Assembly (NCBI GenBank): GCA_016196065.1
Contig: JACPYL010000010.1
Location: forward strand, 1,984,001 to 2,048,000
Direction: 5' to 3'
Length of the DNA: 64,000 nt
Source of the DNA: Acidobacteriota bacterium
GTDB taxonomy: Bacteria; Acidobacteriota; Terriglobia; Terriglobales; Acidobacteriaceae
In this document: positions 29,508-45,436 of the stretch, piece by piece
How positions within the stretch are numbered: the first letter of the stretch is position 1
Layout of the letters: the number at the start of each line of letters is the position of its first letter
Translations under genes and position numbers: made by a program
The notes under the pieces: model-generated
The model's input: only the letters and a program-made list of their open reading frames with translations
The model's database searches: none
What the model was told of the DNA's origin: nothing

Positions 29508-31265
29508 ATGATCTCGTGGATCCCTTCAGAAATGCGCTGGCTGTTCCGGCAGGTGCGCCCTTTCCTTCGCTGGCACATCGCCAGCTTTCTTTGCATGTCG
29601 GTCGGCAGCTTTCTAGCGCTTCTCTCGCCGCTTGTCTTGAAATGGATGATTGATGTGGTTCTCCCGGGTCGGAGGGTGGGACTCTTGGTCGCGGCTGTCG
29701 TGCTCATCTTCCTCTGCCATCAGGGACGAGCGGTGCTGACGACGGGAGGCGGCTACTTGACTATGCTCGCAGCCCAGCAGCTGGCGCTAGCTCTGCGCAT
29801 GCGGCTTCTCCGGCATCTAGACACACTCTCCGCCGACTATCACGAAGGCACACCGGTGGGCGCCTCAATGTATCCGCTAAAGGATCCGATTGATGAAATC
29901 TCATTTCTAGGTTCCGATCTGGTGCCTTCCATCCTGCGGACCCTTCTAGCCACACTACTGACGCTGGGAGCGATGTTGATATTGAATCCCCGGATGACCC
30001 TGGTAGTTTTGCCGCTCATTCCTGTCTTTGTCTTCACGAGAAAGCACTTCCGAAACCGGTTGGAACGCGATTCCGAGACAGTGCAGCAAAACCAAGTAGC
30101 GTGGAGCAGTTTCCTGCAGGAACACCTTTCGTCGATCATTGCCATACAACTCCTCCGTCGGGAGCAACGACAGGAGCGCACGGCGTTTTGTTTGTTGGGT
30201 GCCTCGGTTCGGTCACTTACCAGGCTTTTCCGGACTGGGGTTTGGTTCACGTTCTTCACCAGCCTGACTATCGGGTTGGCGATGTCCGGCGTTATTGGAT
30301 ACGGTGGCTGGAGTGTGCTCGAAGGTACGCTGACGGTGGGCGGTTTGGTCGCGTTCTACACGTATCTGGCCCAACTTTTTGAACCCTTGAGTGGTGTGGC
30401 GGAGACTTACGCACGGGCGCAGAAAACATTTGCCAGTATCCGTCGCGTGCAAAGCGTTCTGGCGTTAGAGCCTGCGATCAAGACCTGCCCGACCGCGATC
30501 AAATTCCCTGAAAATCGTCCGTGGACAATCCAGTTGGCCGATGTGCGCTTTGGATACCCGAAAAGCGATGGATTGTTGTGCATTCCGCGCCTGGAGATTC
30601 CGGCAGGCGATCAAGTGGCCATTGTGGGAGAAAACGGCGCTGGTAAGAGCACGCTGGCAAAACTCATAGCCCGTCTCTACGACGTGGACTCGGGATCGAT
30701 TTCCGTTGCCGGCCAGGATGTACGAGAGATCGAAATCGAAAGCCTTCGTGAGCAGGTGTGCTATGTCCCACCTCACCCAGTGCTCTTCGATACGACGTTG
30801 GCCGGCAACCTTAGGCTGGGAAAAGGCACAGCCTCGGAATCCGAACTGAAGGAAGTGATGGACTATGTGGGGCTCGCAACTGGGTCAAGCGCCTTGCGGG
30901 AGGGTCTCAACCGGCGGATCGGCCCGGGAGGCCATCAATTGTCGGGCGGTCAACGACAGCGCGTGGGGATCGGCAGAGCAATCCTCCAGCGGCCGCGCAT
31001 CCTGATTCTGGACGAAGCCACTTCTTCGCTCGACGCGGGTTCAGAACGACAGTTGCTAAGCAGCCTACGAAGAATCTTGCCGGGTACTACGATCGTCGTG
31101 GTTTCACACCGTCTATCCGCATTGCACTGCGTTAACAGAGTGATCGTTCTCGATGCGGGGCGTATCGTCGAGGATGACGTTCCAGCAGCACTTCTCGCGA
31201 ACAGTGGCGCATACTCTCGACTGTTCACTGCTGGCGCCCCACCCTGCGCGCTGGTGGCCGAATAG
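29508..31265 (+). CDS. ABC exporter, fused membrane and ATPase domains
   Basis: The 585-residue protein has six membrane helices (about 15-300) and a nucleotide-binding domain with Walker A GENGAGKST (about 374), signature LSGGQRQRVG, Walker B ILILDEATSSLD and H-loop VVSHR. The Q-loop position reads CYVPPHPVLF, so the usual Gln is absent. It is a half-size exporter forming a homodimer, of the class used for peptides and lipids, including lasso peptides. It is co-directional with, but about 2 kb upstream of, the lasso genes, separated by AbiE genes on the other strand, so participation in peptide export is only a hypothesis. Confidence 0.88.
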   Translation: MISWIPSEMRWLFRQVRPFLRWHIASFLCMSVGSFLALLSPLVLKWMIDVVLPGRRVGLLVAAVVLIFLCHQGRAVLTTGGGYLTMLAAQQLALALRMRLLRHLDTLSADYHEGTPVGASMYPLKDPIDEISFLGSDLVPSILRTLLATLLTLGAMLILNPRMTLVVLPLIPVFVFTRKHFRNRLERDSETVQQNQVAWSSFLQEHLSSIIAIQLLRREQRQERTAFCLLGASVRSLTRLFRTGVWFTFFTSLTIGLAMSGVIGYGGWSVLEGTLTVGGLVAFYTYLAQLFEPLSGVAETYARAQKTFASIRRVQSVLALEPAIKTCPTAIKFPENRPWTIQLADVRFGYPKSDGLLCIPRLEIPAGDQVAIVGENGAGKSTLAKLIARLYDVDSGSISVAGQDVREIEIESLREQVCYVPPHPVLFDTTLAGNLRLGKGTASESELKEVMDYVGLATGSSALREGLNRRIGPGGHQLSGGQRQRVGIGRAILQRPRILILDEATSSLDAGSERQLLSSLRRILPGTTIVVVSHRLSALHCVNRVIVLDAGRIVEDDVPAALLANSGAYSRLFTAGAPPCALVAE

Positions 31266-32259: not shown

Positions 32260-32870
32260 GCCGTCACGTGCTCCGTAGCCGCTTGAACTCTACCGCCGTC
32301 GTGTGCGTGCTGGTTCAGTTGGCGTGTGATCCGGTTCGCTTCCGCCGCGCCTATGTATCCTTCCTTGCGCGCATCTTTGATGGCTTGGCGGGCCAATCCC
32401 AATCTTCCGGTTGTGTCCATGACGTCCAACACACTCTTGGCCACGGTCGTGACCGGTAGGCCTTCGTGCGTGGTCACATCCCTAGGCGAGAGGGTGCCGC
32501 GATGAATCACGATCCCCTTCGGCTTCGTGCGCCGGAGTCTTGCATCTTTGGGGACTGTAATATGGATCCGCGCCGGATTAACATCGGAGATCTCATACAC
32601 GGCCAGCGCGGTTTCGTGCGAGAGCGCGACTTTTTCGGGCCCATGACTCGCGCGCGCCCACAAGATTGCCTCCCTGTATTGAGATAACCGATCAGTAGGA
32701 AAGTAAGGGATTCGATAGACGCCGCGCGCGGCCCGTGCGAGCTTTCCTCGGCGCGTCATGCGCGCCAAGACAGAATCCACGATGCCGATGGCACGGGCCT
32801 GGCTTGCGGTTACCAGGCCATCATTCTCTTCGGCCAGAGCAAGCAGTTCGTGAATGCGGGAACGGGGCAT
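32256..32870 (-). CDS. abiEi: AbiEi-family antitoxin (AbiE pair 2)
   Basis: The 204-residue protein starts with the family's winged helix (RIHELLALAEENDGLVTASQ; RMTRRGKLARAARGVYRIP) and continues with the AbiEi C-terminal domain (AILWARASHGPEKVALSHET; GLPVTTVAKSVLDVMDTTGR). It neutralises the toxin indirectly and represses its own operon. It overlaps abiEii by four bases, and a TTCCATATTGGAA palindrome lies about 40 bases upstream. Confidence 0.9.
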   Translation of the reverse strand: MPRSRIHELLALAEENDGLVTASQARAIGIVDSVLARMTRRGKLARAARGVYRIPYFPTDRLSQYREAILWARASHGPEKVALSHETALAVYEISDVNPARIHITVPKDARLRRTKPKGIVIHRGTLSPRDVTTHEGLPVTTVAKSVLDVMDTTGRLGLARQAIKDARKEGYIGAAEANRITRQLNQHAHDGGRVQAATEHVTA

Positions 32871-32923: not shown

Positions 32924-33241
32924 TTAAAGTGACAAATGGTAGTTTGGGCCTGTCTGGCTCTATCGTGCTCAAAGACAGATAGATAGCGCCAGTGGTACGA
33001 GGGAGAGAGTTGCCCCGGACGCGAGCCTTTTCAGTGCACTCTACCGCTAGTGCTATTAAGTAAGGCGGAAAGCCGAACAGACACCCACGCCACTGCGATT
33101 GCCCAAGCCTGCTATCGCGTTGAAGATATAGAGCTCCTGATCTGATCCGGGCTGTCTTGCGAACATTTCCCGCAGAGTGTCGCGTCACGTCCCTGTCCCA
33201 TGACACATTCCTCAGCACACTCCCAACCGGAAGGATTCACC

Positions 33242-33517
33242 GTGTACGAAGTTTCAACAGGAGTTCGCAGCACACGAAACGAGGACGGCGGAATCGTCCT
33301 CGACATAGACCACGGCCAAATGTTCCGGCTGAACCCTGTAGGAGCGTTGATTCTGGAATCCCTGGCAAAGGGATCTACAGAAACAGAGATTGCCAAGGAA
33401 ATTTCGCGTCAGTACAGCATAAGCGAGGAAATGGCAGCAGCCGACGTGCGTGAGTTCCTCGGATCGCTCGAACAACACAAACTTGTTCGGGCACAGCAGC
33501 GAGAGAAGGTTTCATGA
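33242..33517 (+). CDS. PqqD-like RiPP recognition element (lasso peptide B1 protein)
   Basis: GTG 33242 follows CGGAAGGA (33229-33236) and gives 91 residues; an in-frame ATG at 33200 would add 14 residues without a ribosome site. The sequence is a PqqD-type winged helix (GGIVLDIDHGQMFRLNPVGA; ILESLAKGSTETEIAKEISR; VREFLGSLEQHKLV). In lasso pathways this small protein binds the leader's YxxP motif and delivers the precursor to the leader peptidase. It overlaps the kinase-like gene by four bases and is first in the operon. Confidence 0.88.
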   Translation: MYEVSTGVRSTRNEDGGIVLDIDHGQMFRLNPVGALILESLAKGSTETEIAKEISRQYSISEEMAAADVREFLGSLEQHKLVRAQQREKVS

Positions 33518-34959
33518 GCAGCACGGCCGTTGAGCAGGATACCCGTCCAGTCGCCTCCCAGCGGACACCGCAGGATCTCTACCGTCTACTCATGCTCCGC
33601 AACAGCGGATCAGAACTCCTCGTTGCCAGCCAACGGCCGCCGTTCACACTTCCATGTGTGGAAATTCCCAAGTGGGAACGGGTAGCGGAAAACCTGAGCG
33701 AAGCGGTCAGGAAGCGCTATGGACTTTCCGCGATTTGCCTTTTCACTCCCGAGCCGTCGGATGCCACGGCGAATGGTGAGCCGCCGCTCTACCAAGTGAT
33801 GGAGACGAGAGAAGCCGCGACTGTGCCCTCCAACGAAATGCGTTGGCTGCCACTCGATTCGATCTCAAATCAACCTTTTGCGGATGAGCAAGACCTCATA
33901 GCGATTACCGACATGTTGCGCCAGATAACCAGATTCCGAAGCGGGGAGGCATGTGGACCGTTTGGGAGGCCGGGGTGGATCGAAGAGCTGGTCTCTTGGG
34001 TAGAGCGTGAGACTGAACCATACGGCCTTCGCTTGACTGGCAACTTCCGACAGTTGAATGCCAGCCCAACCTTCTCACTAATCCGACTTGAAACAAACGC
34101 TCAAGCTGTGTGGTTCAAGGCTGTCGGTGAACCCAATCTGCGGGAATTTTCGATATCTGCCGCGCTAGCGAAGTTGTTTCCGGGCTTCGTCCCTACCGTC
34201 ATCGCACCTCATGCAGCCTGGCATGGCTGGCTGACGACGGAGTTCCCCGGTTCAACATTGGATGAAGCTTCAGATTCATCCGCATGGGAGCGAGCTGCCC
34301 ATGCCTTGGCAGAGCTCCAAATCGTCTCGGTGGGACACACCGACCTGCTCCTTGACGCTGGATGCCGCGACCTTCGAGTTCCTAGTCTCCTGACCTTGGT
34401 CGATCCATTCATAGAAGTGATGTCGCAGCTCATGGAGCAACAGCAGAAGACCCCACCGGCCGCACTCGGTAGAGGCGAGCTCCTGACGCTCGGAACTCAG
34501 ATCAAGGAGACGTTGTCGGAACTGGCGGAGTTAGACATTCCCGACACGTTGGGACATCTGGATTTCAATCCAGGAAACATCTTGTGTTCTGCCGATCAAT
34601 GCGTCTTCCTTGACTGGGCTGAAGCGTACGTGGGACCTCCATTTCCGACATTCCAATATCTTCTCGAACATCTGTACCAGACGGCGACTCACCGTGCCCT
34701 CGACTCCGAGCGCCTTGTGGATCACTACGCTGCAAGGTGGCTTTGCCTTGTTTCGCCATCAGCCGTTGCCGCCGCTCAGAGAATGATGCCTCTTGTTTCG
34801 GTGTTCGCCTGCGCAGTTGCCAGCGACTGGATCGAAGCGCTTCCCCGCAGAGACGAGCGCTTCGCAGGGTACCTACGCAGTCTGACTCGGCGAATGCAGC
34901 GCGAGTCTGGCGTGTTGCATGCCTGCCAAAAGAATTCCCGCGTCGGAGTGGTTCAGTGA
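33514..34959 (+). CDS. APH-like kinase of the lasso operon, with NUDIX-like N-terminal region
   Basis: The C-terminal half (about 190-460) is an aminoglycoside-phosphotransferase/choline-kinase fold: catalytic loop HLDFNPGN (His348, Asp350, Asn355) and metal-binding FLDWAE (Asp367). The N-terminal 150 residues (ELLVASQRPPFTLPCVEIPK; MRWLPLDSISNQ) resemble a NUDIX-like domain lacking a visible Nudix box. It is translationally coupled to the PqqD-like gene. Lasso clusters can include tailoring kinases of the HprK or nucleotidyltransferase kinds; an APH-type kinase suggests phosphorylation of a Ser or Thr of the peptide or of a small co-substrate. This is inference. Confidence 0.75.
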   Translation: MSSTAVEQDTRPVASQRTPQDLYRLLMLRNSGSELLVASQRPPFTLPCVEIPKWERVAENLSEAVRKRYGLSAICLFTPEPSDATANGEPPLYQVMETREAATVPSNEMRWLPLDSISNQPFADEQDLIAITDMLRQITRFRSGEACGPFGRPGWIEELVSWVERETEPYGLRLTGNFRQLNASPTFSLIRLETNAQAVWFKAVGEPNLREFSISAALAKLFPGFVPTVIAPHAAWHGWLTTEFPGSTLDEASDSSAWERAAHALAELQIVSVGHTDLLLDAGCRDLRVPSLLTLVDPFIEVMSQLMEQQQKTPPAALGRGELLTLGTQIKETLSELAELDIPDTLGHLDFNPGNILCSADQCVFLDWAEAYVGPPFPTFQYLLEHLYQTATHRALDSERLVDHYAARWLCLVSPSAVAAAQRMMPLVSVFACAVASDWIEALPRRDERFAGYLRSLTRRMQRESGVLHACQKNSRVGVVQ

Positions 34960-35000
34960 GTTCTTAGTCTTGAGCGGTCATGAACGAAGGAGGCTCGCGA

Positions 35001-35375
35001 GTGCTGATTCTGATCCTGAGCGCGTACATCGAGCTCATACGCTTTGGCTTTCACGTCAAACGCCAAGAGTTTTCGGCTCTCCATTCTGCGGTGCGTAACT
35101 GTGACGTGCGAGAAGACACCAGTCCTCGTATCGCTTTGGCGGAACTGTGCCGCGCCGTCGATATTGCCTGCATCTGGTATTGGAAACAGGTCCTCTGCCT
35201 GCAACGTTCCGCGGCCGCGACTTGTTTCCTTCGGCGACACGGGATAGCTGCACAACTCGTGATTGGTACCCAGCAGGTCCCCTTCAATGCGCATGCCTGG
35301 GTAGAAGTCGATGGTCAAGTTGTCACTGATAAAGCGTACATGCACGAGATGTACGTCGTGCTCGAAAGAATCTGA
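35001..35375 (+). CDS. Lasso peptide leader peptidase (B2, transglutaminase-like)
   Basis: GTG 35001 has AAGGAGG (34987-34993) seven bases upstream and gives 124 residues; ATG 34980 would bury that ribosome site inside the gene. The family pattern is clear: CLQRSAAATCFLRRHGI with catalytic Cys66, NAHAWVEVDG with His98, and TDKAYM with Asp110 (numbering from GTG). This is the Cys-His-Asp triad of the McjB-type protease that removes the leader from the precursor held by the PqqD-like protein. It lies between the kinase-like and cyclase genes. Confidence 0.9.
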   Translation: MLILILSAYIELIRFGFHVKRQEFSALHSAVRNCDVREDTSPRIALAELCRAVDIACIWYWKQVLCLQRSAAATCFLRRHGIAAQLVIGTQQVPFNAHAWVEVDGQVVTDKAYMHEMYVVLERI

Positions 35376-35401
35376 GCCACATTCGCGGGGGGGACATCAT
35401 C

Positions 35402-37357
35402 ATGAGCGCCCAGTTTGGGACATGGAATTTCGACGGTCGCCCCGTGGATACCCGCTATCTCAATGACGCGGCCACCCTCCTTTCTCCTTACGGGCCGGAC
35501 CGCCAGACGTCTCATGTTGCGTGCAATATCAGTCTTCAATATTTCGCCTTTCACGTCACGAAGGAATCTCGCCGAGAGGTACAACCTCTCGTGACACAAT
35601 CTGGCGATGTCATTACGTGGGACGGAGTGCTCGACAATCAGGATGAACTCGCAAAAGAAATTGGTCTTGCCAACTCCGATGAACACACGGACCTCCAGAT
35701 TGTGGCGGCGGCATGGACCAAGTGGGGTACGAACTGCTTCGCGAAGCTGCTTGGCGACTGGGCACTAACAGTCTGGAAACCGGCAGAGCAGACCCTATTT
35801 CTGGCCAAGGATTTCATCGGTACTCGCCATCTTTATTATTGCGTGCGCCAGGATCACGTGGCCTGGAGTACTGTACTTGATCCACTCATTGTCCTAGCTG
35901 GATGCACCTTCCAATTGGACGAGGACTACGTCGCCGGCTGGCTGTCGCACTTTCCTGCAGCCCATTTAACTCCGTTCGTAGGGGTTAACGCAGTCCTGCC
36001 GGCCAACTATGTACAAATTCGAAACGGCAAGGTCAGGACTACCAGATACTGGGACTTCCGCCCTCGCCACACGATTGACTACCACACAGACGGGGAGTAC
36101 GAAGAGCACTTTCGGACGCTCCTGGCAACATCGGTGCAGCGACGCTTGCGCTCTGATGCTCCCATCCTCGCTGAACTCAGCGGTGGAATGGACTCCTCTT
36201 CAATCGTCTGTATGGCGGACAACCTCGTCGCGAGAGGCGTACCCGCCCCCAGAATCGACACCGTGTCGTACTACCAAGATGACGAGCCCGCTTGGGACGA
36301 GCGGCCCTACGTCGCGGTGATCGAAAAGACGCGAGGGCGGACTGGTTGCCACATCGACGTCTCCACTCACAACCTCCTCAGCTATCGCTACGACTCTGAT
36401 CGCCCAGAATTGACACCAGTATCCAGAGGAGACGCTTCTGAACCGGTTAGCAAGATGGCGAGCTACATGGCGTCCAATGGACACCGTATTGTCCTGTCGG
36501 GGCTTGCCGGAGACGAACTCCTGGGTGGGGCCCCAAGCTTCATCCCTCAACTCGCTGACCTGCTGGTAGCGGCGCGCTTTGGCACGCTCTCGCGGCAACT
36601 AACGGCCTGGGCACTGAGCAACAGAACCACGGTAATGGCTCTCCTGACCGAAGTCCTGCGCACCTTCTTGCCTAAAGGGTTGACGGACACATCCAGAGAC
36701 GTTCGCTCTGCGCCCTGGCTGGAAACAGAATTCACAGCGACGCATCGGGCAGCTTTCTCCCGCTACCAACGACCCTTTTCTTTGTTTCGCGACAAACCAA
36801 GCGTTCAAGAAAGATTGGAGACCGTTGAGGCTTTACGGCGCCAGATCGCTTCATGCGTGCAGGCACCCCAAATTCTCTGTGACAAGCGATACCCGTACCT
36901 GGATCGAGACCTCGTGGAGTTCCTATTCGCCATTCCTCCAGATCAACTCCAGCGGCCTGGCAAGCGGCGCTCTCTCATGCGACGCGCTCTCGTCGGAATC
37001 GTCCCCGACGAACTGTTGAACAGAAAGCGGAAGGCTTTCCTTGCCAGACAGCCGCTGGTAGACATCATGTCCCATTGGTCTGCCTATCGCGAGCTCGCGG
37101 AGAATTCGATTTTGGTCGCTCTGCGTTTCATTGACCGCAACCGCCTGACCGCCTCATTGGAAAAAGCCAGGGCAGGAGACATGATCCCGCTGCCGCTCTT
37201 AGCACATGCCGTGGTCCTTGAGAACTGGCTGAGACACATAAGGCCATATGGATTTGTGCCTTCGCTGCCCGGATATGTTGCGCCCCGCAACAAGCGTGGG
37301 CCCGCGGTCGCCAAGCATTCGATCTCAGCTGAGACACTCACAAACGAAAGGAGGTGA
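35402..37357 (+). CDS. Lasso peptide macrolactam synthetase (asparagine-synthase-like cyclase)
   Basis: The 651-residue protein has an N-terminal class II glutaminase-like domain (FGTWNFDGRPVD) whose second residue is Ser rather than the catalytic Cys, as usual for lasso cyclases, and a C-terminal asparagine-synthase domain with PPi-loop LSGGMDSSSI (about 259-268) and LSGLAGDELLGG. It adenylates the side-chain carboxylate of Asp or Glu in the core and joins it to the N-terminal amine. The last codons and stop (TGA 37355-37357) are part of the Shine-Dalgarno sequence of the first precursor gene. Confidence 0.93.
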   Translation: MSAQFGTWNFDGRPVDTRYLNDAATLLSPYGPDRQTSHVACNISLQYFAFHVTKESRREVQPLVTQSGDVITWDGVLDNQDELAKEIGLANSDEHTDLQIVAAAWTKWGTNCFAKLLGDWALTVWKPAEQTLFLAKDFIGTRHLYYCVRQDHVAWSTVLDPLIVLAGCTFQLDEDYVAGWLSHFPAAHLTPFVGVNAVLPANYVQIRNGKVRTTRYWDFRPRHTIDYHTDGEYEEHFRTLLATSVQRRLRSDAPILAELSGGMDSSSIVCMADNLVARGVPAPRIDTVSYYQDDEPAWDERPYVAVIEKTRGRTGCHIDVSTHNLLSYRYDSDRPELTPVSRGDASEPVSKMASYMASNGHRIVLSGLAGDELLGGAPSFIPQLADLLVAARFGTLSRQLTAWALSNRTTVMALLTEVLRTFLPKGLTDTSRDVRSAPWLETEFTATHRAAFSRYQRPFSLFRDKPSVQERLETVEALRRQIASCVQAPQILCDKRYPYLDRDLVEFLFAIPPDQLQRPGKRRSLMRRALVGIVPDELLNRKRKAFLARQPLVDIMSHWSAYRELAENSILVALRFIDRNRLTASLEKARAGDMIPLPLLAHAVVLENWLRHIRPYGFVPSLPGYVAPRNKRGPAVAKHSISAETLTNERR

Positions 37358-37358
37358 T
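37347..37358 (+). promoter_or_regulatory. Full-consensus ribosome site of precursor 1, embedded in the cyclase stop
   Basis: AAAGGAGGTGAT is complementary to the 16S rRNA tail over its whole length and is four bases from ATG 37363. The cyclase stop codon lies inside it. It implies very high translation of the precursor relative to the enzymes. Confidence 0.85.
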
Positions 37359-37362
37359 ACTC

Positions 37363-37503
37363 ATGAAATACAGAAAGCCTGAAATCGTTGCAGTCGTGAA
37401 CGCTACGATGGCCATCGAGGGCATCAAGCCTGGTCAGGTCGCGGACAACAACCATCCGACAACTCCGCCCAAGTCGAGCGGAGCTTACCTATCGGATGAA
37501 TAA
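37363..37503 (+). CDS. Lasso peptide precursor 1
   Basis: A 46-residue peptide. The leader carries Y3-R-K-P6 (the YxxP motif bound by the PqqD-like protein) followed by hydrophobic EIVAVV. A ring that fits the enzymes starts at Gly20 and closes on Asp28 (GIKPGQVAD, nine-membered), leaving a Pro/Thr-rich loop and a tail ending GAYLSDE; the core would be 27 residues. The residue at leader position -2 would be Ile18, whereas most leaders have Thr there; the nearest Thr is 15. The gene sits directly after the cyclase, so precursor genes come last instead of first. The core is inferred, not shown. Confidence 0.82.
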   Translation: MKYRKPEIVAVVNATMAIEGIKPGQVADNNHPTTPPKSSGAYLSDE

Positions 37504-37508
37504 CAGAG

Positions 37509-37540
37509 GCCTGGGTGCTCGTGGCGCCGTGCGCCCAGGC
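37509..37540 (+). terminator. Stem-loop between the two precursor genes
   Basis: GCCTGGGTGC (37509-37518) pairs with GCGCCCAGGC (37531-37540) over ten positions with one G-U pair; the loop has 12 bases. TTCCTCATTC follows. It begins five bases after the precursor 1 stop. It may end most transcripts, or act as a stability or processing element that raises precursor 1 mRNA. Confidence 0.6.
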
Positions 37541-37608
37541 TTCCTCATTCAAACGTTCTCATAACCGATGCCACAGTCAAACTGTTCGACCGAATCAACT
37601 CCAACACG

Positions 37609-37620
37609 AAAGGAGGTGAT
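37609..37620 (+). promoter_or_regulatory. Full-consensus ribosome site of precursor 2
   Basis: AAAGGAGGTGAT is identical to the site of precursor 1 and stands at the same four-base distance from ATG 37625. The preceding bases CACGAA... resemble the cyclase tail, showing that the duplicated unit included it. Confidence 0.8.
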
Positions 37621-37624
37621 ACGC

Positions 37625-37765
37625 ATGGAATACAGAAAGCCTGAAGTTGTTGCAATCGTGGAAGCCACTCTCGCGATTGAAGGAATGAAGCCAGGCCTCG
37701 TTGCGGACAATAACCACCCGACAACCCCGCCCAGATCCAGCGGGGCATACCTGTCCGATGAGTAA
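37625..37765 (+). CDS. Lasso peptide precursor 2
   Basis: Also 46 residues and collinear with precursor 1 without gaps. The leader YxxP (Y3-P6) is kept; the proposed ring is GMKPGLVAD (Gly20 to Asp28). Within the proposed core only three positions differ from precursor 1 (Ile to Met at ring position 2, Gln to Leu at 6, Lys to Arg in the loop), all compatible with one enzyme set; leader changes include Lys2 to Glu. An upstream in-frame ATG at 37568 lacks a ribosome site and is rejected by comparison with precursor 1. Confidence 0.82.
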   Translation: MEYRKPEVVAIVEATLAIEGMKPGLVADNNHPTTPPRSSGAYLSDE

Positions 37766-37783
37766 ATGATCAACCGGGGTGTC

Positions 37784-40102
37784 TCAGTATTGGGCATCCC
37801 GGCTTTCTCCGACTTGTTCGAGGTGGTCATGCCGATCGTCATTCGAGCTGTTCGGAGCGCCCTTTCTCCCTCGAAGGAGCTGCGCTCGCATTTTCTCCCA
37901 GCGCTGGTATTGCTCTTTTTTTGCTGGGTCGGGATCAGATCTCCCCTGGAGCCAGTACGCGAACCAATCAACATTTCCTTGCTGAGATACGAGCCGTTCC
38001 CAGGGTTTGAACAGGAGGTGTGTCCCGAACGGAATCCATATGAGTTCCACGGGTTTCTCTCGGAACGAGAGTCCTGAGAACCATTCCCAACCTCCGACAA
38101 GCGAACCATAGCCGTATTCCTCGATCCTGACAGGCGCATCAACCTTGTCGAGATTGAAACCGGGAGACCGCTTCAGCCAAAGCTCCAGTGAAGTGCCGGA
38201 GGGCAATCCGCCGTTCACCAAAACCGAGTCCGCACCTTGAAAGAGCACGTAGTTGACGTACCCACCTTCGAAACCATCGGCCAAGGTGGCCGCGGCGAAA
38301 TGATACTTCGAGTGCGTCAAGGTGTAACCAACCTTGAACGCTGTGCGGCTAAAGCCGATCATGCCCACACGGTTACGATCAATCAACCCTTGTCGATCCA
38401 ACTCGTCGATCGCTCCCTCGTAGGCTGCCATCTCTCGCGGACCTTCTTCGGTAGTATTAGTGACATTTGTGTGTTGGCCAGACTCGACCGAGCGCCCTAC
38501 CTGTAAGACGACAATCCCTTTGCCCGCGAGCGGCTGAGCGGCGAATGCGCTCGTAAAAGGTCCGTCAATCCAGAACCTGTCTTTGTCGAAGCCATGTGTC
38601 TGGATGACAAGCGGATATCGCACGCCGGATCTGTAGTCGGGTGGCAAGTAGAGCCCGCCAACCATCTCATGACCGTCGGTGGGCTTCCATCGAAACTCGG
38701 TGACTCTCCCGAGAGTAAGCCCGCGAAACTGAGGATTCAGGTCCAGCAAGAGAGTCTTCTGCTTTCGACCCGAGTCCACTAAATAGAGGTGAGGGGGAGT
38801 GTCGAGATCCTCTTCCAAAACTACTTCAGGCGACATAGTGCCTGTCGCCAACTCGCTCTGCGGTATTTCGTGCCATGCCGAACCAAGTTTTTGGTACCCG
38901 ACCGAAGCTGGCGTTTCCGCTCCTGTCCCTTGCAGAATTAACGCTCCGGTCGAACTCCGCCATTCCCGAATCGCGAGAGACTCATTCGTAATGGGCAGGT
39001 ATTGACGGCTAGGCAACAGCACTTCGGCGACAAAGGGAAGTCGAGTTCTTTCCTCTCGTGCCTTCGGATCGGCAACGTCAAGTGGAAGGTACGTACCAGA
39101 CATGCCCAGGGATTGCCCATCGTTTATCCAGGCGAACCCCCTGCTGCCATAGGCCGAGGGTGCGGCGATGATCGGCTGAATCGTCTTTCTCGCAGTGTCG
39201 AGCAACATGTATTGCGCAATGTTCGAGTATTCGTCTGCCTGGCGGGCCTCACGCAGGTACGGGCGGAGGATTTCGTCTTCATATTCCGCCCATTCCCGCG
39301 GAACGTTTCTTAAGTAAACTGAAACCAAAGCAAAGCGCCCGTCAGGCGACATCGAGAGAGGTTCCCAGTCTGATATGAAGTCGTCCGTTTCAATCCGCGA
39401 GGCAACTCCGTCACGCCCTTGAAGGTACAGCTGCTCGCTTCGATCGGCCCGCTCTATCCCGAGGTCTTCGGTAAGAAGGTTGTCCGGGTAGCCTCCAGTA
39501 ACAACGAACCCGTTACGTCGCACTTCCGGGGTGTCGATTTTCTTTACGGAAGGAGGATGGGCCTCGAAAACAATCTGATCTCCGCTCCGGCTGATGTCAT
39601 AAGCCACGATCGCGGTGGGGTGACTCGTTAATTTTCGAAGTTTCCCGGAGCTGATATTCAAGCTGTAGATCTGCGGCGTCTCGCCGGGGTTTTCTCCAAG
39701 AAAGACGATGGTTTCGTTGTCGCCCAGCCATTTGACGTTCTTAATGCCCTCGCGGTTTGAGGAAGAAGACATGGTCACAAGAACTCGTGGCTCGGCGGGC
39801 TCCACTGTAGAGCTCGTTCTGAACATGAGGATTGAGAACTCGTTTGTGTTTGACTTCAGATTGCCTTTCTTCAAAACGACTAAGAATCGAGTCCCATCAG
39901 GAGAGAAGATACCGACTCTGCCCTTGGAAGAGCTCCCAGCGGCGTAGCTCCGGTCTGCCCATTGCGTCATTTCAATCGCGTCGGCAACCGTTGCGGGGGC
40001 GCGCGACACAATTACTTTCCCGGGCTCTTCAGCTTGCACAAAGGTCGCGAAAGCCAGAAAGCAGGCGCAACCCAGGCAAAGCAATTTCCGCAGTCGATTC
40101 AT
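37784..40102 (-). CDS. Exported prolyl-oligopeptidase-like protein, probable lasso isopeptidase
   Basis: The 772-residue protein has a signal peptide (about 1-24), a beta-propeller (about 40-470, with SPDGTRFLVVLKKG and SRSGDQIVFE blades) and an S9-type alpha/beta hydrolase domain with nucleophile Ser585 in GMIGFSRTAF and His695 in PFGTHLL. The acid residue cannot be assigned with certainty; Glu661 or Glu662 is possible. Lasso isopeptidases of the AtxE kind have this architecture and hydrolyse the macrolactam of their own lasso peptide after uptake. Position convergent to the precursors and downstream of a TonB receptor supports this. Confidence 0.8.
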   Translation of the reverse strand: MNRLRKLLCLGCACFLAFATFVQAEEPGKVIVSRAPATVADAIEMTQWADRSYAAGSSSKGRVGIFSPDGTRFLVVLKKGNLKSNTNEFSILMFRTSSTVEPAEPRVLVTMSSSSNREGIKNVKWLGDNETIVFLGENPGETPQIYSLNISSGKLRKLTSHPTAIVAYDISRSGDQIVFEAHPPSVKKIDTPEVRRNGFVVTGGYPDNLLTEDLGIERADRSEQLYLQGRDGVASRIETDDFISDWEPLSMSPDGRFALVSVYLRNVPREWAEYEDEILRPYLREARQADEYSNIAQYMLLDTARKTIQPIIAAPSAYGSRGFAWINDGQSLGMSGTYLPLDVADPKAREERTRLPFVAEVLLPSRQYLPITNESLAIREWRSSTGALILQGTGAETPASVGYQKLGSAWHEIPQSELATGTMSPEVVLEEDLDTPPHLYLVDSGRKQKTLLLDLNPQFRGLTLGRVTEFRWKPTDGHEMVGGLYLPPDYRSGVRYPLVIQTHGFDKDRFWIDGPFTSAFAAQPLAGKGIVVLQVGRSVESGQHTNVTNTTEEGPREMAAYEGAIDELDRQGLIDRNRVGMIGFSRTAFKVGYTLTHSKYHFAAATLADGFEGGYVNYVLFQGADSVLVNGGLPSGTSLELWLKRSPGFNLDKVDAPVRIEEYGYGSLVGGWEWFSGLSFREKPVELIWIPFGTHLLFKPWERLVSQQGNVDWFAYWLQGRSDPDPAKKEQYQRWEKMRAQLLRGRKGAPNSSNDDRHDHLEQVGESRDAQY

Positions 40103-40140
40103 CCGAGGTCCTCTGGAGACGCAGACGAAGCTCTTTTTGC

Positions 40141-43100
40141 CTAGAAGACGAGTTTTAAGGAGAGTTGCAGTGAGCGCGGACCGCCCTGCTGGAAGAGAGG
40201 ATTCAGTCCCCCTAAGCCCACGTTGGACATCATTGTCGATTGCAGAAACGCCGGTCCGAATCCGACATACCCAAAGGGGTTTCTGAAGTTTGGGTGATTC
40301 AGGACATTGAATGCATCTACGCGGAAGTGCAGTGTGAGCTTGTCTATGAAGGAGAACTTCCGAAGCACGGAGAGGTCAACTTGAGAGAGACCAAAACCCC
40401 GTATATCGTTTCTCCCTTCCGTTCCCTGGCGAAGTGTCGGCGGGATCACAAAGGCATCCGGATTTAGCCGTTGGTTCCCGGGCGCAAGTGGATCCGCCAA
40501 CCAAGAAGGTTGCCCAGGAACACGGTCAGGCCTCGGAAAGGCTCCGCCAATGGTGGCCGTCAGCAAGTTTGCGTTGAAGGGGAAACCACTTCTCGCCACG
40601 ACCAGGGCTTCGAGAGACCAGCCATCGGTAGCATACGCCAGCGCCCCCGAGTGGCCCGCTCTGGGGACTTCAAAAACCGCGGCGCCCGAAAAATTGTGGC
40701 GCACGTCAAAATCCGAAGAGGAGTAATCGTTCGCCGCAGAGATGACGTCCTTGGAAAGCAGCGGCTGAACATCATTCGAGGCATTGTCGAGAGAGTGCGA
40801 AAAGGTGTAGTTCAACAATACATGGAGGCGATTGGCAACAGGTCTCCGGAATTGCACCTGCAGAGCATGGTAATTCGAGAAGGCGTCGTTGCGAGTCAGC
40901 GAAAAATCACCAGCGAAATTGCTATTAGGTTGTGGAATGCCCTCTTGGCGCAAAAGATCCCGCCCTGCTTGGCCGACATAGGTGAACGATAGAGCCTGTT
41001 CCTGCCCAAACGCCTTCTCAATTGCCAAATTCCATTGGTGGGAGCGAGGCTGCTTCAGGTTCGGCGAGAATCCGATCGCATTCTGGTAAGGGGGTTGCGT
41101 GTTCAATGGCGGCAGATACGATGTTGGATTGATCAGAGGAACGGAAACTGCATCGAGAAAGGTTGATGCAGAATTAGGAAACGTGCTCCCTAGCGACGCT
41201 GCGGATTCGGCGCCCAAGTCGTAGAAGATGCCCCATCCCGCCCGCAAAACCAGGCTTCCTTTCTGATTCAGGCTGTAGGCAATTCCCAAGCGGGGGGCGA
41301 AATTTCCGTAGGTCGTAGACCATAGCGGCGTCCCCGGCGGCGCAAGCGCAAGCAGGTCTGGATTGTCCACGTTGCGCCAAGCAGCGAGAGTGGTATTCCC
41401 TCTGGCTGCCGGGGCCGGACTTAGTTCCCAACGGACTCCGTAGGTTGCCGTCAGCCTGGGTGTGACGCTCCATGTGTCCTGAGCATAAAGTGAGAACGCG
41501 TGGATTCGATATTCAGCTTCCTTGGCCGACACGGCAAAGAACTGAACCTGTCCTGAAGACAGGAAACTGGCCACATCGTTCGCCAGATAGTCGAGGAAAG
41601 CATCATACGGTTTCTGGTCGAGGAGGATCATCCTCCAGTCCGTACCAAATCTGAATCGGTGTGATCCGCGCATCCACGCCACATCGTCAGCGATATTGAC
41701 TTGGCTGTTTCGATTGCTGGCGTTGAATCCGCTCTGGTACACGGCAGTATCGAAAGTAAAAAACGACGCAAACGTGGAGGCTGGGCTGAGCGGAGCTGGG
41801 GTGAGTACGTCGACAGGTGGGGGAATGGCTCCCCCGAGAGAATCCAGGCTCGATACGCTCCCCGCTTTCTGAAGCGAGTAGTTTGCTCGAAGCGTGTTGG
41901 CAAGTCGGGAAGTCAAAGTCATGTTGGACCCGACCGTAAAGGTCCTGGTCTTGATATCGACCGAATCGATTTCACTGAGCGCATTGCTGCGGGAAGCCAC
42001 TGCCGAAGGAGCTTCGTTGTAGCGGCCGAAAATCGAGAACCGTTCGTTGAAGGTATGATCCAAGCGCACGCTACCTGCATTCAGAGTAGAAGGATTCGAA
42101 AAGCTACCCGTGAACTGGGAGGTGTAGGAACCAGGAACGACCGTGCGATCATCAGGGCGGGGATAGGCAGCCAAGAAGGGCAAGAGTGTCGGGTCGGCAA
42201 CAGACCGGGCATATTCCGAGGGGACCTGTATCACCTGAAGGCTTGGCTGTCGCAATCGAGATCCTTCGTAGGAAGCAAAGAAAAACGTCTTACCTCGTAC
42301 AATCGGTCCACCCAAGTAGCCTCCAAAATTGTTGTAACGCTCGGCCGCTCGGGGTTCGCCTGCTGCGTTTGCGAACCAGTTGTTCGCGTCGAGCACGTCA
42401 TTTCTGAAGAACTCGTAGACTCCTCCGTGGAAATTGTTCGTGCCCGAGCGGGTCGTGAAGATCACTTGGCCGCCGGGTGAGCGCCCGAATTCTGGGGCAA
42501 ACGATGAAGTTTCGATCCTAAACTCTTGCAGAGCCTCAACAGAAATCAGGCTGCTTGTGCCGCCCAGCGCGCTGAAGGCCTGTGCAGCCCCCGTCCCTGT
42601 CGTGCCTAAAGCAACCGTGGGCGCGACGCCGAAATTGGCAGAGACTCCGTCGATCAGAAAGTTGTTAGCGCTCGTCCGTTGGCCGGCAACACTGAATTGT
42701 CCCTGATTGTTGGATGCCGCTTGAGCAATGACCACGCCAGGCGTCAGTTGGAGCAGTGTATTAAAGTTTCGTCCGTTCAAGGGAAGGCTCTCGACGAGGC
42801 TTCGATCGATCACCGTACTGACTGAGCCCGACTCCGTGTTTACGAGCGGCGCACCCCCTGTCACGGTTAACGTTTCGGAGAAGGCGCCAACCGGCAAGGT
42901 GAAATTGATTGCTACCGCTGATTGCACGTTGAGGACAACGTCGGGTTTGATGAGGGTCTTGAATCCAATTTTTGAGACTTGAATACGGTAGGGTCCTGGG
43001 GGAAGGTTGGGTACAGCATAGATGCCTTCGGCATTCGTTGTGCCGGGATATCTGACTCCGGTGGCATCATTGACGATCAGGATTTCGGCACCCACGATTG

Positions 43101-43245
43101 CCCTTCCCGAAGGATCGAGGACAAGACCACTAATCGTGCCATTGGGGGATTGCCCGATTGCAGCCCTAGTGAGAAACACGATCAAGAGGAAGAGGGGAAG
43201 GGGGAAGCGTCTCACTAGGGCTGCTCCTGGCTCGCACGGATTCAT
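40141..43245 (-). CDS. Oar-like TonB-dependent receptor of the lasso locus
   Basis: The 1034-residue protein has a signal peptide, a carboxypeptidase-regulatory-like domain (about 33-115: NGTISGLVLDPSGRAIVGAE), a plug (about 130-260: VESLPLNGRNFNTLLQLTPG) and a barrel ending in LQLSLKLVF-stop. It is 38 bases upstream of the isopeptidase gene and 95 bases downstream of the anti-sigma gene, all on one strand. In proteobacterial lasso loci a TonB receptor takes the peptide back into the periplasm for isopeptidase action; the same role is proposed here, with a receptor of the acidobacterial type. Confidence 0.88.
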   Translation of the reverse strand: MNPCEPGAALVRRFPLPLFLLIVFLTRAAIGQSPNGTISGLVLDPSGRAIVGAEILIVNDATGVRYPGTTNAEGIYAVPNLPPGPYRIQVSKIGFKTLIKPDVVLNVQSAVAINFTLPVGAFSETLTVTGGAPLVNTESGSVSTVIDRSLVESLPLNGRNFNTLLQLTPGVVIAQAASNNQGQFSVAGQRTSANNFLIDGVSANFGVAPTVALGTTGTGAAQAFSALGGTSSLISVEALQEFRIETSSFAPEFGRSPGGQVIFTTRSGTNNFHGGVYEFFRNDVLDANNWFANAAGEPRAAERYNNFGGYLGGPIVRGKTFFFASYEGSRLRQPSLQVIQVPSEYARSVADPTLLPFLAAYPRPDDRTVVPGSYTSQFTGSFSNPSTLNAGSVRLDHTFNERFSIFGRYNEAPSAVASRSNALSEIDSVDIKTRTFTVGSNMTLTSRLANTLRANYSLQKAGSVSSLDSLGGAIPPPVDVLTPAPLSPASTFASFFTFDTAVYQSGFNASNRNSQVNIADDVAWMRGSHRFRFGTDWRMILLDQKPYDAFLDYLANDVASFLSSGQVQFFAVSAKEAEYRIHAFSLYAQDTWSVTPRLTATYGVRWELSPAPAARGNTTLAAWRNVDNPDLLALAPPGTPLWSTTYGNFAPRLGIAYSLNQKGSLVLRAGWGIFYDLGAESAASLGSTFPNSASTFLDAVSVPLINPTSYLPPLNTQPPYQNAIGFSPNLKQPRSHQWNLAIEKAFGQEQALSFTYVGQAGRDLLRQEGIPQPNSNFAGDFSLTRNDAFSNYHALQVQFRRPVANRLHVLLNYTFSHSLDNASNDVQPLLSKDVISAANDYSSSDFDVRHNFSGAAVFEVPRAGHSGALAYATDGWSLEALVVARSGFPFNANLLTATIGGAFPRPDRVPGQPSWLADPLAPGNQRLNPDAFVIPPTLRQGTEGRNDIRGFGLSQVDLSVLRKFSFIDKLTLHFRVDAFNVLNHPNFRNPFGYVGFGPAFLQSTMMSNVGLGGLNPLFQQGGPRSLQLSLKLVF

Positions 43246-43340
43246 ACAGATTCATCCGGTCTACGGAAGCCCCCCTTCATTTGTATCAATATTTTTTTGA
43301 ATGGAACGATCTGAAAACCTGTGGTCGGTTTTCCGAACAC

Positions 43341-44666
43341 CTAGGGATGATTGGGATCGATGTGCAGAGAGGCAAATAAGAGAGACTTGTTGCTTGGCTT
43401 TTGGCTCCCGCCATGGGGTTCCACAGTGACAAAAACAGCATCAATTTCCGCAAGAGCTTTGGGGTCGTCGAATCTTAGGACCCATCGCTTCTTTGAAGCG
43501 TTGTCGACATAGAAAACACCCAGGTTTAACGCCTGCTGCCTATCAGGTCCACGTCGGCCCCATGCCTGGAAAGTGCTGGCATTCTTCACGCCGGCCTGCT
43601 GGTCCAGATCGTAAGCGTAAAAGATCAGCGACTTGCCTTTCGTGTAGAAGACACGGCCATATGGCTTTCTTGTCTCCCCGGTACGCGCAACGTCGTACAC
43701 TTCCGCGATGTACAGATCTCGCGCACCCATTAGGTCCCGAATGTCGCGGTCATGAGCGAGAAGTTCCTGCTGTTGATCGATCGTGGTTTCGCGATCACGC
43801 AGCAAACGATTCAGATCAGTGACCTTGGCTTCGAGCGTACTGGTCCGTTGCTTGTCCTCGGACGACTGGTGTTCGAGCGAATCCAGCTTGTCCTGCAAAC
43901 CCTGGGCCTTGGCCTGAGCTGATTCCACCCTTTTGTTCAGTTCAGTTCGCTGTTGAAGAAGATCCTGCCTGCCTGCCTGGCCGGTGGAGAGGTCGGTCTC
44001 CAGTTGAGTTTGGGCGACCTTCATTCGGCCCATCTCGGCAGATTGCTGCTCGACCTGGTGCCGAAGATCAACAATCGCTTTGTCGCGCTGTGCCATTTGC
44101 GCGCGTAACACTTCGCGCTCATGCCCTGCGTCGCTAACCTGCTGTTCCAGTGCGGGGAGATGATCTTGGGTTGTGGGCGGCGTGATCGCAGCGGTCTTTA
44201 CGCCCGTTCGTATGCCGACCCGATAGGCGGAAACGCCAAGAGCAATGCACAGCAAAACGCCGGCGGCACATAGCGTCCACACATTGCGCCAAGTCGCCTG
44301 ACTGGCCGAAAGAGGAACTCTGCCGATGGCTTTCGACGCAGAGTCCCCCTCGGTCCCCCCTCGATCCGCGCCCAATTCTTCCTCAAGCGCCAGCCGTTGG
44401 AAGAGGGCCGCCTCGGCTTGCTCCAGCGACCACGACGGATCGGATTCGATACTCTTAAGATCCGGCGCCAGGGCGGGAATGGTCTTGCTCACGACCGCCT
44501 CGTACTGCTTCATGGCTTCCCTGCAAGAGGGACAGACAGCCAGATGCTCCTTTAGCCGTGTTCCTTCCTCCCCGGTCAACTCACCCGAAGTTGAGAGAGC
44601 ACACAGCGCGAGGAACTCGTCATGGGCTGATTGTGACAACGCCCCAGCTCCTGATTTGAGAGTCAC
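43341..44666 (-). CDS. Membrane anti-sigma factor with zinc finger and long coiled coil
   Basis: Residues about 15-60 hold a zf-HC2 finger (LKEHLAVCPSCREAM, HxxxCxxC), and one membrane helix lies at about 128-148 (VWTLCAAGVLLCIALGVSAY). A long periplasmic coiled coil follows (about 165-290, HEREVLRAQMAQRDKAIVDL...), then a globular C-terminal domain like that of RskA-type anti-sigma factors (GKSLIFYAYDLDQQ; EIDAVFVTVEPHGGSQKPS). Its start overlaps the sigma-factor stop (ATGA). It probably holds the sigma factor until a periplasmic or outer-membrane signal arrives. Confidence 0.85.
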   Translation of the reverse strand: MTLKSGAGALSQSAHDEFLALCALSTSGELTGEEGTRLKEHLAVCPSCREAMKQYEAVVSKTIPALAPDLKSIESDPSWSLEQAEAALFQRLALEEELGADRGGTEGDSASKAIGRVPLSASQATWRNVWTLCAAGVLLCIALGVSAYRVGIRTGVKTAAITPPTTQDHLPALEQQVSDAGHEREVLRAQMAQRDKAIVDLRHQVEQQSAEMGRMKVAQTQLETDLSTGQAGRQDLLQQRTELNKRVESAQAKAQGLQDKLDSLEHQSSEDKQRTSTLEAKVTDLNRLLRDRETTIDQQQELLAHDRDIRDLMGARDLYIAEVYDVARTGETRKPYGRVFYTKGKSLIFYAYDLDQQAGVKNASTFQAWGRRGPDRQQALNLGVFYVDNASKKRWVLRFDDPKALAEIDAVFVTVEPHGGSQKPSNKSLLFASLHIDPNHP

Positions 44667-45436
44667 TTTCTACCATATCCGTTCCGGCCCGACAATTTTC
44701 CTGGGAACATCTGTTTGCGCAGTTTCTCCAAGCCTCGATAGTAATGGTTCCGGATGTTGCCCAAGGATTGATCCAGCTTCGCGGCGATCTCAGCGAATGT
44801 GTATCCCTCGTAGAAATGCAGACTGAGAGTATTACGCTGGTCTTCGCTGAGGGTGTCGAGAAGTCCTTGGATGGTCGTATTTCCGACCAGTTCGTATGGG
44901 AAATCGGTTCCTCCGACCGCGTTCGACCGGAGATCGAATACTGCAGCCGCCTCATTGAGTTCGACCTGTGTGTAGAAGTGGCGCGATTGGAGGGCTCGGC
45001 GTTTGTCGAATGCGCGGTGGTAGGTCATCTGGATGATCCAGGACCGCGCTGAACTCTTGGCGCTGTCGAAGGTTCCGCACTTGCGGTGAATGTACAGGAA
45101 GACTTCTTGAAGGAGGTCGTCAGCTTCCGAGCTATCTCTCAGGATGCGGAGTGCTACTCCGCGCACCAGGCGTGCATAGCGGCGGAAGAGGTGCGCCAGC
45201 GCTTCCGCGTCGTTGTTATAAATATTCTCAACTAAGAGCTCGTCGGACCATGCCGGGCGAGATTCAAGAGGGTTCGGAGTCGCCTTTGCACGACCCATTT
45301 CTTGCCCTAGTTGTTCAACGGGTTGTTTGATTTCCAGTCCGTCAGGAGCCACATGGCTCTCTTCGAGCCCGTTCGCACGTGTCGAGATTCTCCCTCGTAG
45401 ATCTCTAGGAAAATAGCGAGCAGCTGATGAACTCAT
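44663..45436 (-). CDS. ECF sigma factor
   Basis: The 257-residue protein has sigma region 2 (ALAHLFRRYARLVRGVALRI; EADDLLQEVFLYIHRKCGTF; SARSWIIQMTYHRAFDKRR) and region 4 (LSEDQRNTLSLHFYEGYTFA, then NIRNHYYRGLEKLRKQMF). It is co-translated with the anti-sigma gene and leads a four-gene minus-strand block (sigma, anti-sigma, TonB receptor, isopeptidase), so it most likely controls uptake and degradation of the lasso peptide. The N-terminal 60 residues are unusually long. Confidence 0.9.
   Translation of the reverse strand: MSSSAARYFPRDLRGRISTRANGLEESHVAPDGLEIKQPVEQLGQEMGRAKATPNPLESRPAWSDELLVENIYNNDAEALAHLFRRYARLVRGVALRILRDSSEADDLLQEVFLYIHRKCGTFDSAKSSARSWIIQMTYHRAFDKRRALQSRHFYTQVELNEAAAVFDLRSNAVGGTDFPYELVGNTTIQGLLDTLSEDQRNTLSLHFYEGYTFAEIAAKLDQSLGNIRNHYYRGLEKLRKQMFPGKLSGRNGYGRK

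Follow-up and report, generated by a model that had tools for sequence, protein, structure and literature searches.

Acidobacterial lasso-type loci as a conserved family with facing synthesis and uptake arms and a predicted lysine side-chain ring

A 64-kb window (the whole stretch of DNA analysed here), belonging to a soil bacterium's genome of 5.5 Mb in 29 contigs which its relatives and named matches put among the Acidobacteriota, carries a lasso-type locus in which six plus-strand genes converge on four minus-strand genes. The locus raises the question of whether the two arms, one for synthesis and one for uptake and opening, form one system, and what kind of ring such a system would make. 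Our data indicate that the convergent layout characterizes a family of lasso-type loci conserved among Acidobacteriota, and it is not a product of chance because the arrangement recurs in dozens of other genomes. In this family a Lys and an acidic residue are six or seven residues apart in nearly all the precursor cores. From this pattern of pairing a Lys-Asp/Glu bond is predicted, and a ring closed by the Lys side chain most likely replaces the N-terminal ring in this clade of cyclases.

The ten genes are open reading frames whose positions and orientations were confirmed. They are listed below with the domain matches and E-values, followed by an ABC gene which lies upstream.

33200..33517, plus strand: RRE/B1, PqqD-like, 105 amino acids (aa); Pfam PqqD 9.3e-17
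33514..34959, plus strand: APH-fold kinase, 481 aa; Pfam APH 5.6e-11
34980..35375, plus strand: B2 leader peptidase, transglutaminase-like, 131 aa; NCBIfam lasso_biosyn_B2 4.4e-21, above cut-off
35402..37357, plus strand: lasso-type cyclase, asparagine-synthetase-like, 651 aa; Pfam Asn_synthase 8.3e-35 and GATase_7
37363..37503, plus strand: precursor A1, 46 aa; core GIKPGQVADNNHPTTPPKSSGAYLSDE
37625..37765, plus strand: precursor A2, 46 aa; core GMKPGLVADNNHPTTPPRSSGAYLSDE
37784..40102, minus strand: isopeptidase, S9 family, 772 aa, hydrophobic N-terminus; NCBIfam Atxe2-type 3.6e-51
40141..43245, minus strand: TonB-dependent receptor, 1034 aa; CarboxypepD_reg, Plug and OMP_b-brl_4 (5e-148)
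43341..44666, minus strand: anti-sigma factor, 441 aa; zf-HC2 and RskA_C (Pfam)
44663..45436, minus strand: ECF sigma factor, 257 aa; Sigma70_r2 3.8e-15, r4 6.8e-14
29508..31265, plus strand: ABC exporter, probable D gene, 585 aa; ABC_membrane and ABC_tran (Pfam)

Conservation of the convergent layout

An RRE/B1, a B2, an asparagine-synthetase-like cyclase and small precursor genes, which together mark a lasso cluster, are all present in the window. The RRE matches the NCBIfam lasso PqqD family (7.4e-18, 64.5 bits, under its cut-off of 70) and the cyclase matches the NCBIfam lasso cyclase family (1.1e-80, also under its cut-off). A preliminary description of this DNA had proposed a ten-gene convergent locus with synthesis and uptake/opening arms, and the reading frames and domain matches bear this out. 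It needs correction at two points: the longest frame of the RRE begins at 33200 and not at 33242, and the ABC exporter upstream of the six plus-strand genes was overlooked.

The isopeptidase was searched for in 398 genomes of the bacterial family at an E-value of 1e-25 or better. It was found in at least 65 genomes and at least 84 places (89 rows, less five that were further fragments of genes already counted); these counts are lower bounds, as the two best first-look candidates of each genome were scored. B2 was found in 110 of the 398 genomes, at 144 places. A listed isopeptidase lies no more than 15 kb away from 54 of these; 28 of the 84 isopeptidase places lack a B2 in that range, several of them being on short contigs. 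Stretches of up to 20 kb were read around the isopeptidases, around 40 of the remaining 90 B2 places and around the best 80 of 248 named relatives (Acidobacteria and others). The loci fetched for comparison carry L-numbers as labels and repeats were removed before counting. This left 80 different clusters whose cyclase belongs to the same clade as that of the window (above 450 bits, L033 and L125 excluded).

Among clusters found through the isopeptidase and read for 9.5 kb or more past the cyclase, isopeptidase and receptor lie on the facing strand in 54 of 54, the presence of the isopeptidase being given by the way these loci were chosen. The anti-sigma gene is present in 40 of them and all four minus-strand genes in 39. 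The preliminary description had proposed to mine other Acidobacteriota for the arrangement, and it does occur in them. On the synthesis side, isopeptidase-found clusters with at least 4.5 kb in view before the cyclase have the RRE in 52 of 54, the kinase in 43 and a prolyl oligopeptidase (POP) in 35. A second set consisted of the loci chosen through B2 for having no listed isopeptidase nearby. In it 14 of 40 have a cyclase of the window's clade and 11 of these extend at least 7 kb beyond it; a receptor faces the cyclase in 10 of the 11 (it is absent from L143), and an S9 protein resembling the isopeptidase is present in six (700 bits in L137, five weak matches of 163-209 bits).

Several variations in gene content were observed. 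The isopeptidase slot is occupied by weak BNR-propeller proteins in L121 (5894-7672) and L147 (6611-8449), and by a laminin-G-domain protein in L153 (4817-6775). L059 has two tandem isopeptidases, and tandem pairs of cyclases occur in L095, L097, L219 and L234. The POP gene (for example L040:4955-6985) shows no evident signal peptide when inspected by eye.

Lysine and acid in the precursor cores

In published lasso rings the N-terminus is joined to an Asp or Glu at position 7-9 (PMC10368454). Precursors A1 and A2 of the window are identical at 38 of 46 residues and share a leader with Tyr at -17, Pro at -14 and Ile at -2, followed by a core of 27 residues. The YxxP motif of lasso leaders is present, and Ile stands at -2 in the place of Thr. 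The register is that of BsfA of Bradymonas, for which a cut after Ile(-2)-X(-1) was proven by mass spectrometry; leaders with Ile at -2 are a published variant for which Acidobacteriaceae, including TAA 166, are named (PMC10368454). Among the 91 paired cores described below the residue at -2 is Ile in 75 and Val in 16, the calling rule having admitted only I, V, T and L.

Precursors were called by rules on the leader and the tail alone, and 98 distinct cores were obtained from 73 loci. Ten cyclase loci gave none (L059, L081, L095, L127, L153, L170, L214, L219, L231 and L234); three precursors of L059, whose leader is one residue shorter, were read by hand and all have a Lys with an acid at +6, and they are kept out of the counts of this section. 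Leaving out the five cores of L033 and L125, which fall outside the clade in the cyclase tree, gives a set of 93. A canonical N-terminal ring throughout the family was rejected, since Asp or Glu at 7-9 is present in only 28 of the 93 cores, as compared to 24.3 ± 4.1 in shuffled ones (33 against 26.7 for all the 98). On the other hand, a Lys stands six or seven residues before an Asp or Glu in 89 of the 93, where shuffling gives 13.2 ± 3.1 with a maximum of 25 in 2000 runs. As Lys tends to lie at positions 3-6 and acids at 9-13, a permutation of acid positions was added; it gives 45.3 ± 4.2, with a maximum of 60 in 5000 runs. For all 98 cores the corresponding figures are 91 observed and 46.0 ± 4.3 permuted. 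By spacing, +6 occurs in 59 and +7 in 37 of the 98 cores (about 7.6 each when shuffled), spacings of +2 to +5 are at chance, and +8, +9 and +10 occur in 15, 13 and 16 cores against about 7 when shuffled; under position permutation the excess disappears at +8 and +9 and almost disappears at +10.

Lys and acid slide together along the core. The position of the first Lys correlates with that of the acid at r=0.90 (94 of the 98 cores), with 0.29 ± 0.09 and a maximum of 0.56 under permutation, and 52 paired cores of the clade have no Asp or Glu at all in residues 1-9. L055 and the TAA 166 locus, L190, are examples of relatives with a core that lacks an acid there. In none of the seven unpaired cores does Arg take the place of Lys. 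The pairing was also found out of sample. Ten further loci were scanned for new cores, of which L259 and L262 repeat L182 and L192 (old cores) and L266 and L267 gave none; the eight unused loci yielded six new precursors, every one of which is paired, while two carry an acid at 7-9. Two of the six are near cores already used (L258 to L100, L264 to L148). In the cyclase tree the paired cores, except those of L125, belong to one clade of 84 rows with SH-aLRT support of 98, and the sister lineage, L033 and L125, has the same leader with an Asp or Glu at position 8 in five of five cores. Other acidobacterial lasso types gave seven precursor candidates from 21 loci, four of them with an acid at 8 or 9, and these are too few to weigh. 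A control on proteobacterial precursors by a T-x/G rule returned mostly random frames (117 candidates) and was not used.

The pairing could have arisen in other ways. One is that the ring is an ordinary N-terminal one, and that variable cutting of the leader or trimming of the core makes it start about two residues before the Lys, which would then be ring position 3. A1 and A2 fit a Gly1-Asp9 ring untrimmed, the acceptor is at position 9 in 16 of 89 paired cores, and the POP found in so many of the operons could serve as an extra peptidase; the Lys is somewhat further from the cut in clusters with POP than where none was found. Against this, the residue two before the Lys is neither small nor conserved (G 20, L 12, S 11 and T 8 of 89), while a conserved residue follows Ile(-2)-X(-1) instead: 71 of the 91 paired cores begin with G, S, N or A. 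The new -2 position that such a cut would imply, four before the Lys, is also not conserved, BsfA with a changed Ile(-2) is barely cut or not cut (PMC10368454), and the pairing is present in clusters with no POP seen, some of these on cut-off contigs. We consider this explanation unlikely. Another is that N-terminal rings of 9-14 residues are formed and the Lys is retained for a different function, such as binding by the receptor or the isopeptidase. The leader register fixes the cut, residue 1 is rich in Gly and Ser and the acceptors lie at positions 9-14, as this would have it; the joint movement of Lys and acid and the absence of Arg in the place of Lys are left unexplained, and published rings have the 7-9 residues mentioned above. 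Large N-terminal rings thus appear improbable, more so than variable cutting.

There are also points that weigh against a Lys side-chain ring. The window peptides fit two rings, Gly1-Asp9 as well as Lys3-Asp9. Residue 1 is mostly Gly or Ser (58 of 91), as expected for an N-terminal donor, which a preference of B2 at P1' would also yield. The cut site is the weak link of the proposal, as its placement in this family rests on homology to BsfA. Within the clade L067 and L201 have no pair and have Asp8, while L041 has a spacing of +8 and L083 one of +5; both cores of L125, outside the clade, happen to hold K2-D8 (+6). The cyclase tree was built by a quick method and gave long-branch warnings. To our knowledge no asparagine-synthetase-type cyclase using a Lys donor has been described. 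The residue pattern nevertheless points to a Lys-Asp/Glu ring as the most likely product. A Lys-Asp ring would have 26 atoms at +6, equal to Gly1-Glu8, and 29 at +7, equal to Gly1-Glu9, and the cyclase is the sole ATP-dependent ligase seen in the shared gene set; no ATP-grasp ligase was detected by Pfam when the locus's eight larger proteins and the ABC protein were scanned. The preliminary description had predicted a 27-residue peptide minus one water. Any single ring agrees with that mass, for which calculation gives 2761.33 Da (A1) and 2792.32 Da (A2) after cyclisation, and 79.97 Da more on phosphorylation; the canonical ring rule, which A1 and A2 fit with Asp9, appears not to hold in the clade.

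The kinase, the exporter and the uptake arm

The kinase has an extra N-terminal beta/alpha domain, and K202, E211, D350, N355 and D367 do not vary across an alignment of 29 homologues. Its model (pLDDT 91) has an APH/choline-kinase fold which matches macrolide and choline kinases and, at rank 20, TvaE with TvaLP, which we take to be the APH-like enzyme of the thioviridamide pathway, one of the ribosomally synthesized and post-translationally modified peptide (RiPP) pathways, and its leader peptide. Pfam and the model agree on the APH fold, and the kinase is not of the HPr-kinase-like, paeninodin type. Of 29 family matches (in 20 of 150 genomes), 26 are near B2 or isopeptidase genes. The cores end in a conserved tail, with Tyr at -5 in 84 of 98, mostly within YEADE, YDLDE or YQADE. 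Ser or Thr occupies the position four before this Tyr in 56 of the 68 cores that come with a kinase gene, as compared to 5 of the 13 that do not (p=0.002); here the three L059 precursors were added and five cores that do not end in a YxxDE-type tail were excluded, and an earlier contrast on paired cores, before this addition, gave 56 of 67 and 2 of 12. Among the six new cores Ser or Thr is at that position in four of five with a kinase and is absent in the one without. It should be noted here that the site was chosen after about 48 positions had been scanned and that, counted per locus, the contrast is 45 of 55 against 3 of 7 (p=0.04), which tells against the assignment. The tail in the window reads SSGAY, and in A1 Ser19 lies four before the Tyr of YLSDE. 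On this correlation the kinase probably phosphorylates the Ser or Thr four residues before the Tyr of the C-terminal YxxDE tail. The conserved Tyr itself was rejected as the target, being retained also where the kinase is absent.

The ABC exporter lies 1.9 kb upstream of the RRE in the window. In several relatives, such as L055, L056, L058, L063, L067, L095, L135 and L142, a homologue immediately precedes the RRE in the same orientation, and the exporter of the window probably belongs to the lasso locus. It is not universal; where at least 4.5 kb before the cyclase was in view, a plus-strand copy is present in 9 of 54 isopeptidase-found and 7 of 13 B2-found clusters, and in the remaining clusters the ABC gene is on the opposite strand or none is in view. 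In the window a minus-strand AbiE-type pair (31432-32259 and 32256-32870) separates the exporter from the RRE; one member of the pair is an AbiEii nucleotidyltransferase by Pfam and its overlapping partner is AbiEi-like by eye.

The isopeptidase scores 174.7 bits on NCBIfam NF033523, below the curated threshold of 400, and its profile matches AtxE2 at 7.2e-65. Its Ser585 and His695 both align with AtxE2, Ser585 with the serine replaced by Ala in 5txe, and the two residues are invariant across 12 aligned sequences. In a Foldseek comparison of the model (pLDDT 80) the top eight PDB matches are chains of SpI-IsoP and AtxE2, in keeping with the AtxE-like isopeptidase of the preliminary description. 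The modelled structure fits an AtxE2-type enzyme with propeller and alpha/beta-hydrolase folds and a predicted catalytic Ser and His. The claim that receptor and anti-sigma factor differ from the proteobacterial types also stands. Pfam reports no STN domain for the receptor, and the set is not of the FecI/FecR/FecA kind; the anti-sigma factor is of the zinc-finger/RskA type without FecR character, with a zinc-finger HxxxCxxC at 41-48, a hydrophobic segment from about 129, a coiled coil and RskA_C at 28.7 bits, slightly under the cut-off of 29.4. In its own genome the anti-sigma factor has no second match at 1e-15, and the next best match of the receptor has 33% identity. The same genome contains 84 pieces, in about 47 positional groups, that match the TonB receptor of the cluster, none of the others above 44% identity.

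The uptake arm also occurs away from synthesis genes. Isopeptidase-receptor loci on long stretches, among them L035, L046, L057, L075, L079, L087 and L105, have no cyclase in view, and some of them carry sigma and anti-sigma genes as well; the genome of L087 has a cut-short synthesis set (L136) about 32 kb away. No B2 match was found in 12 of the 65 isopeptidase genomes, six of which are rated at least 97% complete. The isopeptidase-receptor loci named above are candidate scavengers of peptides from other strains. The anti-sigma factor was found in 42 of 200 genomes at 58 places, 29 near the isopeptidase or B2 places found and 29 away from lasso genes. In 19 of these unlinked loci that were fetched, an ECF gene adjoins in all 19 and a receptor in 15, and no cyclase, B2 or RRE was seen in any of them. 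The gene after the receptor, viewed in 12, is S9-like by the isopeptidase profile in L236 and L253 and BNR-type (Pfam) in L240, L251 and L252, the rest having been judged by eye or not found.

As this triad recurs at unlinked loci beside other enzymes, sigma factor, anti-sigma factor and receptor are a general acidobacterial module which is joined here to an isopeptidase. It could be argued from the unlinked loci that all the minus-strand genes are such an import module, a mere neighbour of the peptide genes with no functional tie to the product. An isopeptidase of the AtxE2/SpI-IsoP kind nevertheless lies between receptor and precursors in all 54 isopeptidase-found clusters with enough flank, albeit by their ascertainment, and the receptor faces the cyclase in nearly all the long B2-found loci as well. 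This makes a chance neighbourhood very improbable, the least probable of the three alternatives considered here. Full independence of the uptake arm was rejected for the isopeptidase and partly accepted for the triad. In the preliminary description separation of the arms would have counted against one system; the conserved arrangement of the isopeptidase with the cyclase upholds the proposal, and half of the anti-sigma places and the isopeptidase-receptor loci with no synthesis genes in view do not.

A proposed cycle and its known relatives

The observed gene content, its conservation, the residue pairing and the conserved catalytic residues can be put together, with moderate confidence, as one explanation: a conserved acidobacterial two-armed family with a Lys-side-chain ring, a tail kinase, export, sensing, import and opening. 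The RRE would bind the leader at Y-17 to P-14 and present the precursor both to the kinase and to the B2 peptidase, and the latter would cut after Ile(-2)-Glu(-1). The cyclase would then activate the Asp or Glu side chain, and the side chain of the conserved Lys six or seven residues upstream, rather than the N-terminal amine, would attack it. The ring so formed would have 26-30 atoms, the size of a canonical lasso ring of 8-9 residues, with the peptide presumably threaded and a short N-terminal extension left free. The ABC protein would export the product. For the sensing and import steps we infer that the returning peptide is taken up by the TonB receptor and that the membrane anti-sigma factor frees the ECF factor, turning on the uptake operon; the isopeptidase would finally open the ring. 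A comparison of promoter words common to the two operons of the window gave two chance-like ones and no shared motif, which does not favour the proposed cycle.

Both halves have relatives in the literature, the biosynthetic half being partly in print already. BsfA-type precursors share the leader with Y-17, P-14 and I-2, the split B1/B2 and a kinase or phosphotransferase, but BsfK distantly resembles HPr kinases and has Ser3 as its target, and BsfA is reported as Gly1-Asp8 (PMC10368454), whereas the kinase here has an APH fold. An acidobacterial biosynthetic gene cluster (BGC) from a soil metagenome, 482.1, has the same order of B1, aminoglycoside-phosphotransferase kinase, B2, C and two A genes of 141 bp; its next gene, of 2118 bp, is hypothetical or unannotated, and no receptor or sigma arm is described in the accessible part of that account (PMC9064862). 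In the papers on BGC 482.1 and Group II the ring is assigned as Gly-to-Asp (PMC9064862, PMC12670498). POP genes lie between core genes in three Group II BGCs, and among the cloned BGCs BGC 89 of Group I (metanodin) yielded peptide (PMC12670498). An acidobacterial lassopeptide cluster is also listed by antiSMASH only (PMC7074687).

The proteobacterial clusters of astexin/AtxE2, sphingopyxin/SpI-IsoP, benenodin and rubrinodin likewise combine an isopeptidase, a TonB receptor and sigma/anti-sigma genes (PMC9266682), and their isopeptidases share the fold and the active-site Ser and His with that of the window. The rubrinodin cluster has an ABC exporter too (PMC9266682). In contrast to these clusters the window has a split RRE/B2 and an APH-fold kinase, the family often has a POP, the receptor is without a reported STN, a zinc-finger/RskA anti-sigma factor takes the place of FecR, no GntR regulator is among the ten genes, and the cores of the family carry the Lys-x5/6-Asp/Glu pair. 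The system of the window is a variant of the isopeptidase-linked lasso clusters. As for the bond itself, lariocidin B, a class V lasso peptide, has a second ring in which a side-chain amide joins Lys2 to the C-terminal residue, but its first ring is N-terminal (PMC12427821). In graspetides ATP-grasp enzymes form the lactam and lactone links (PMC8939145), and it is such a ligase that the scanned window proteins lack. No acidobacterial uptake arm, two-armed family or Lys ring was found in the open literature, in a search of main texts that took in few subscription papers and no supplements or figures.

On a more tentative footing than the cycle itself, these loci may constitute a separate acidobacterial class, defined by a Lys ring made by an asparagine-synthetase-type cyclase, a free N-terminal extension, APH tail phosphorylation and an import-and-open recycling, private or scavenged, that is present also in non-producing genomes. 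The role of isopeptidase-linked lasso peptides has been termed enigmatic (PMC9266682) and the isopeptidase has been described as mainly alpha-proteobacterial (PMC13352647). An acidobacterial family with a different receptor, anti-sigma factor and kinase provides a second evolutionary test of the idea that such peptides are made in order to be reopened, and the uptake-only loci make siderophore-like sharing or piracy testable. The pairing of Lys with Asp or Glu is the part likely to surprise specialists. If the Lys ring is true, mining that requires an acid at 7-9 would overlook the real acceptor in no fewer than 64 of the 93 cores, and peptide engineering would gain a useful lasso cyclase that employs a new nucleophile.

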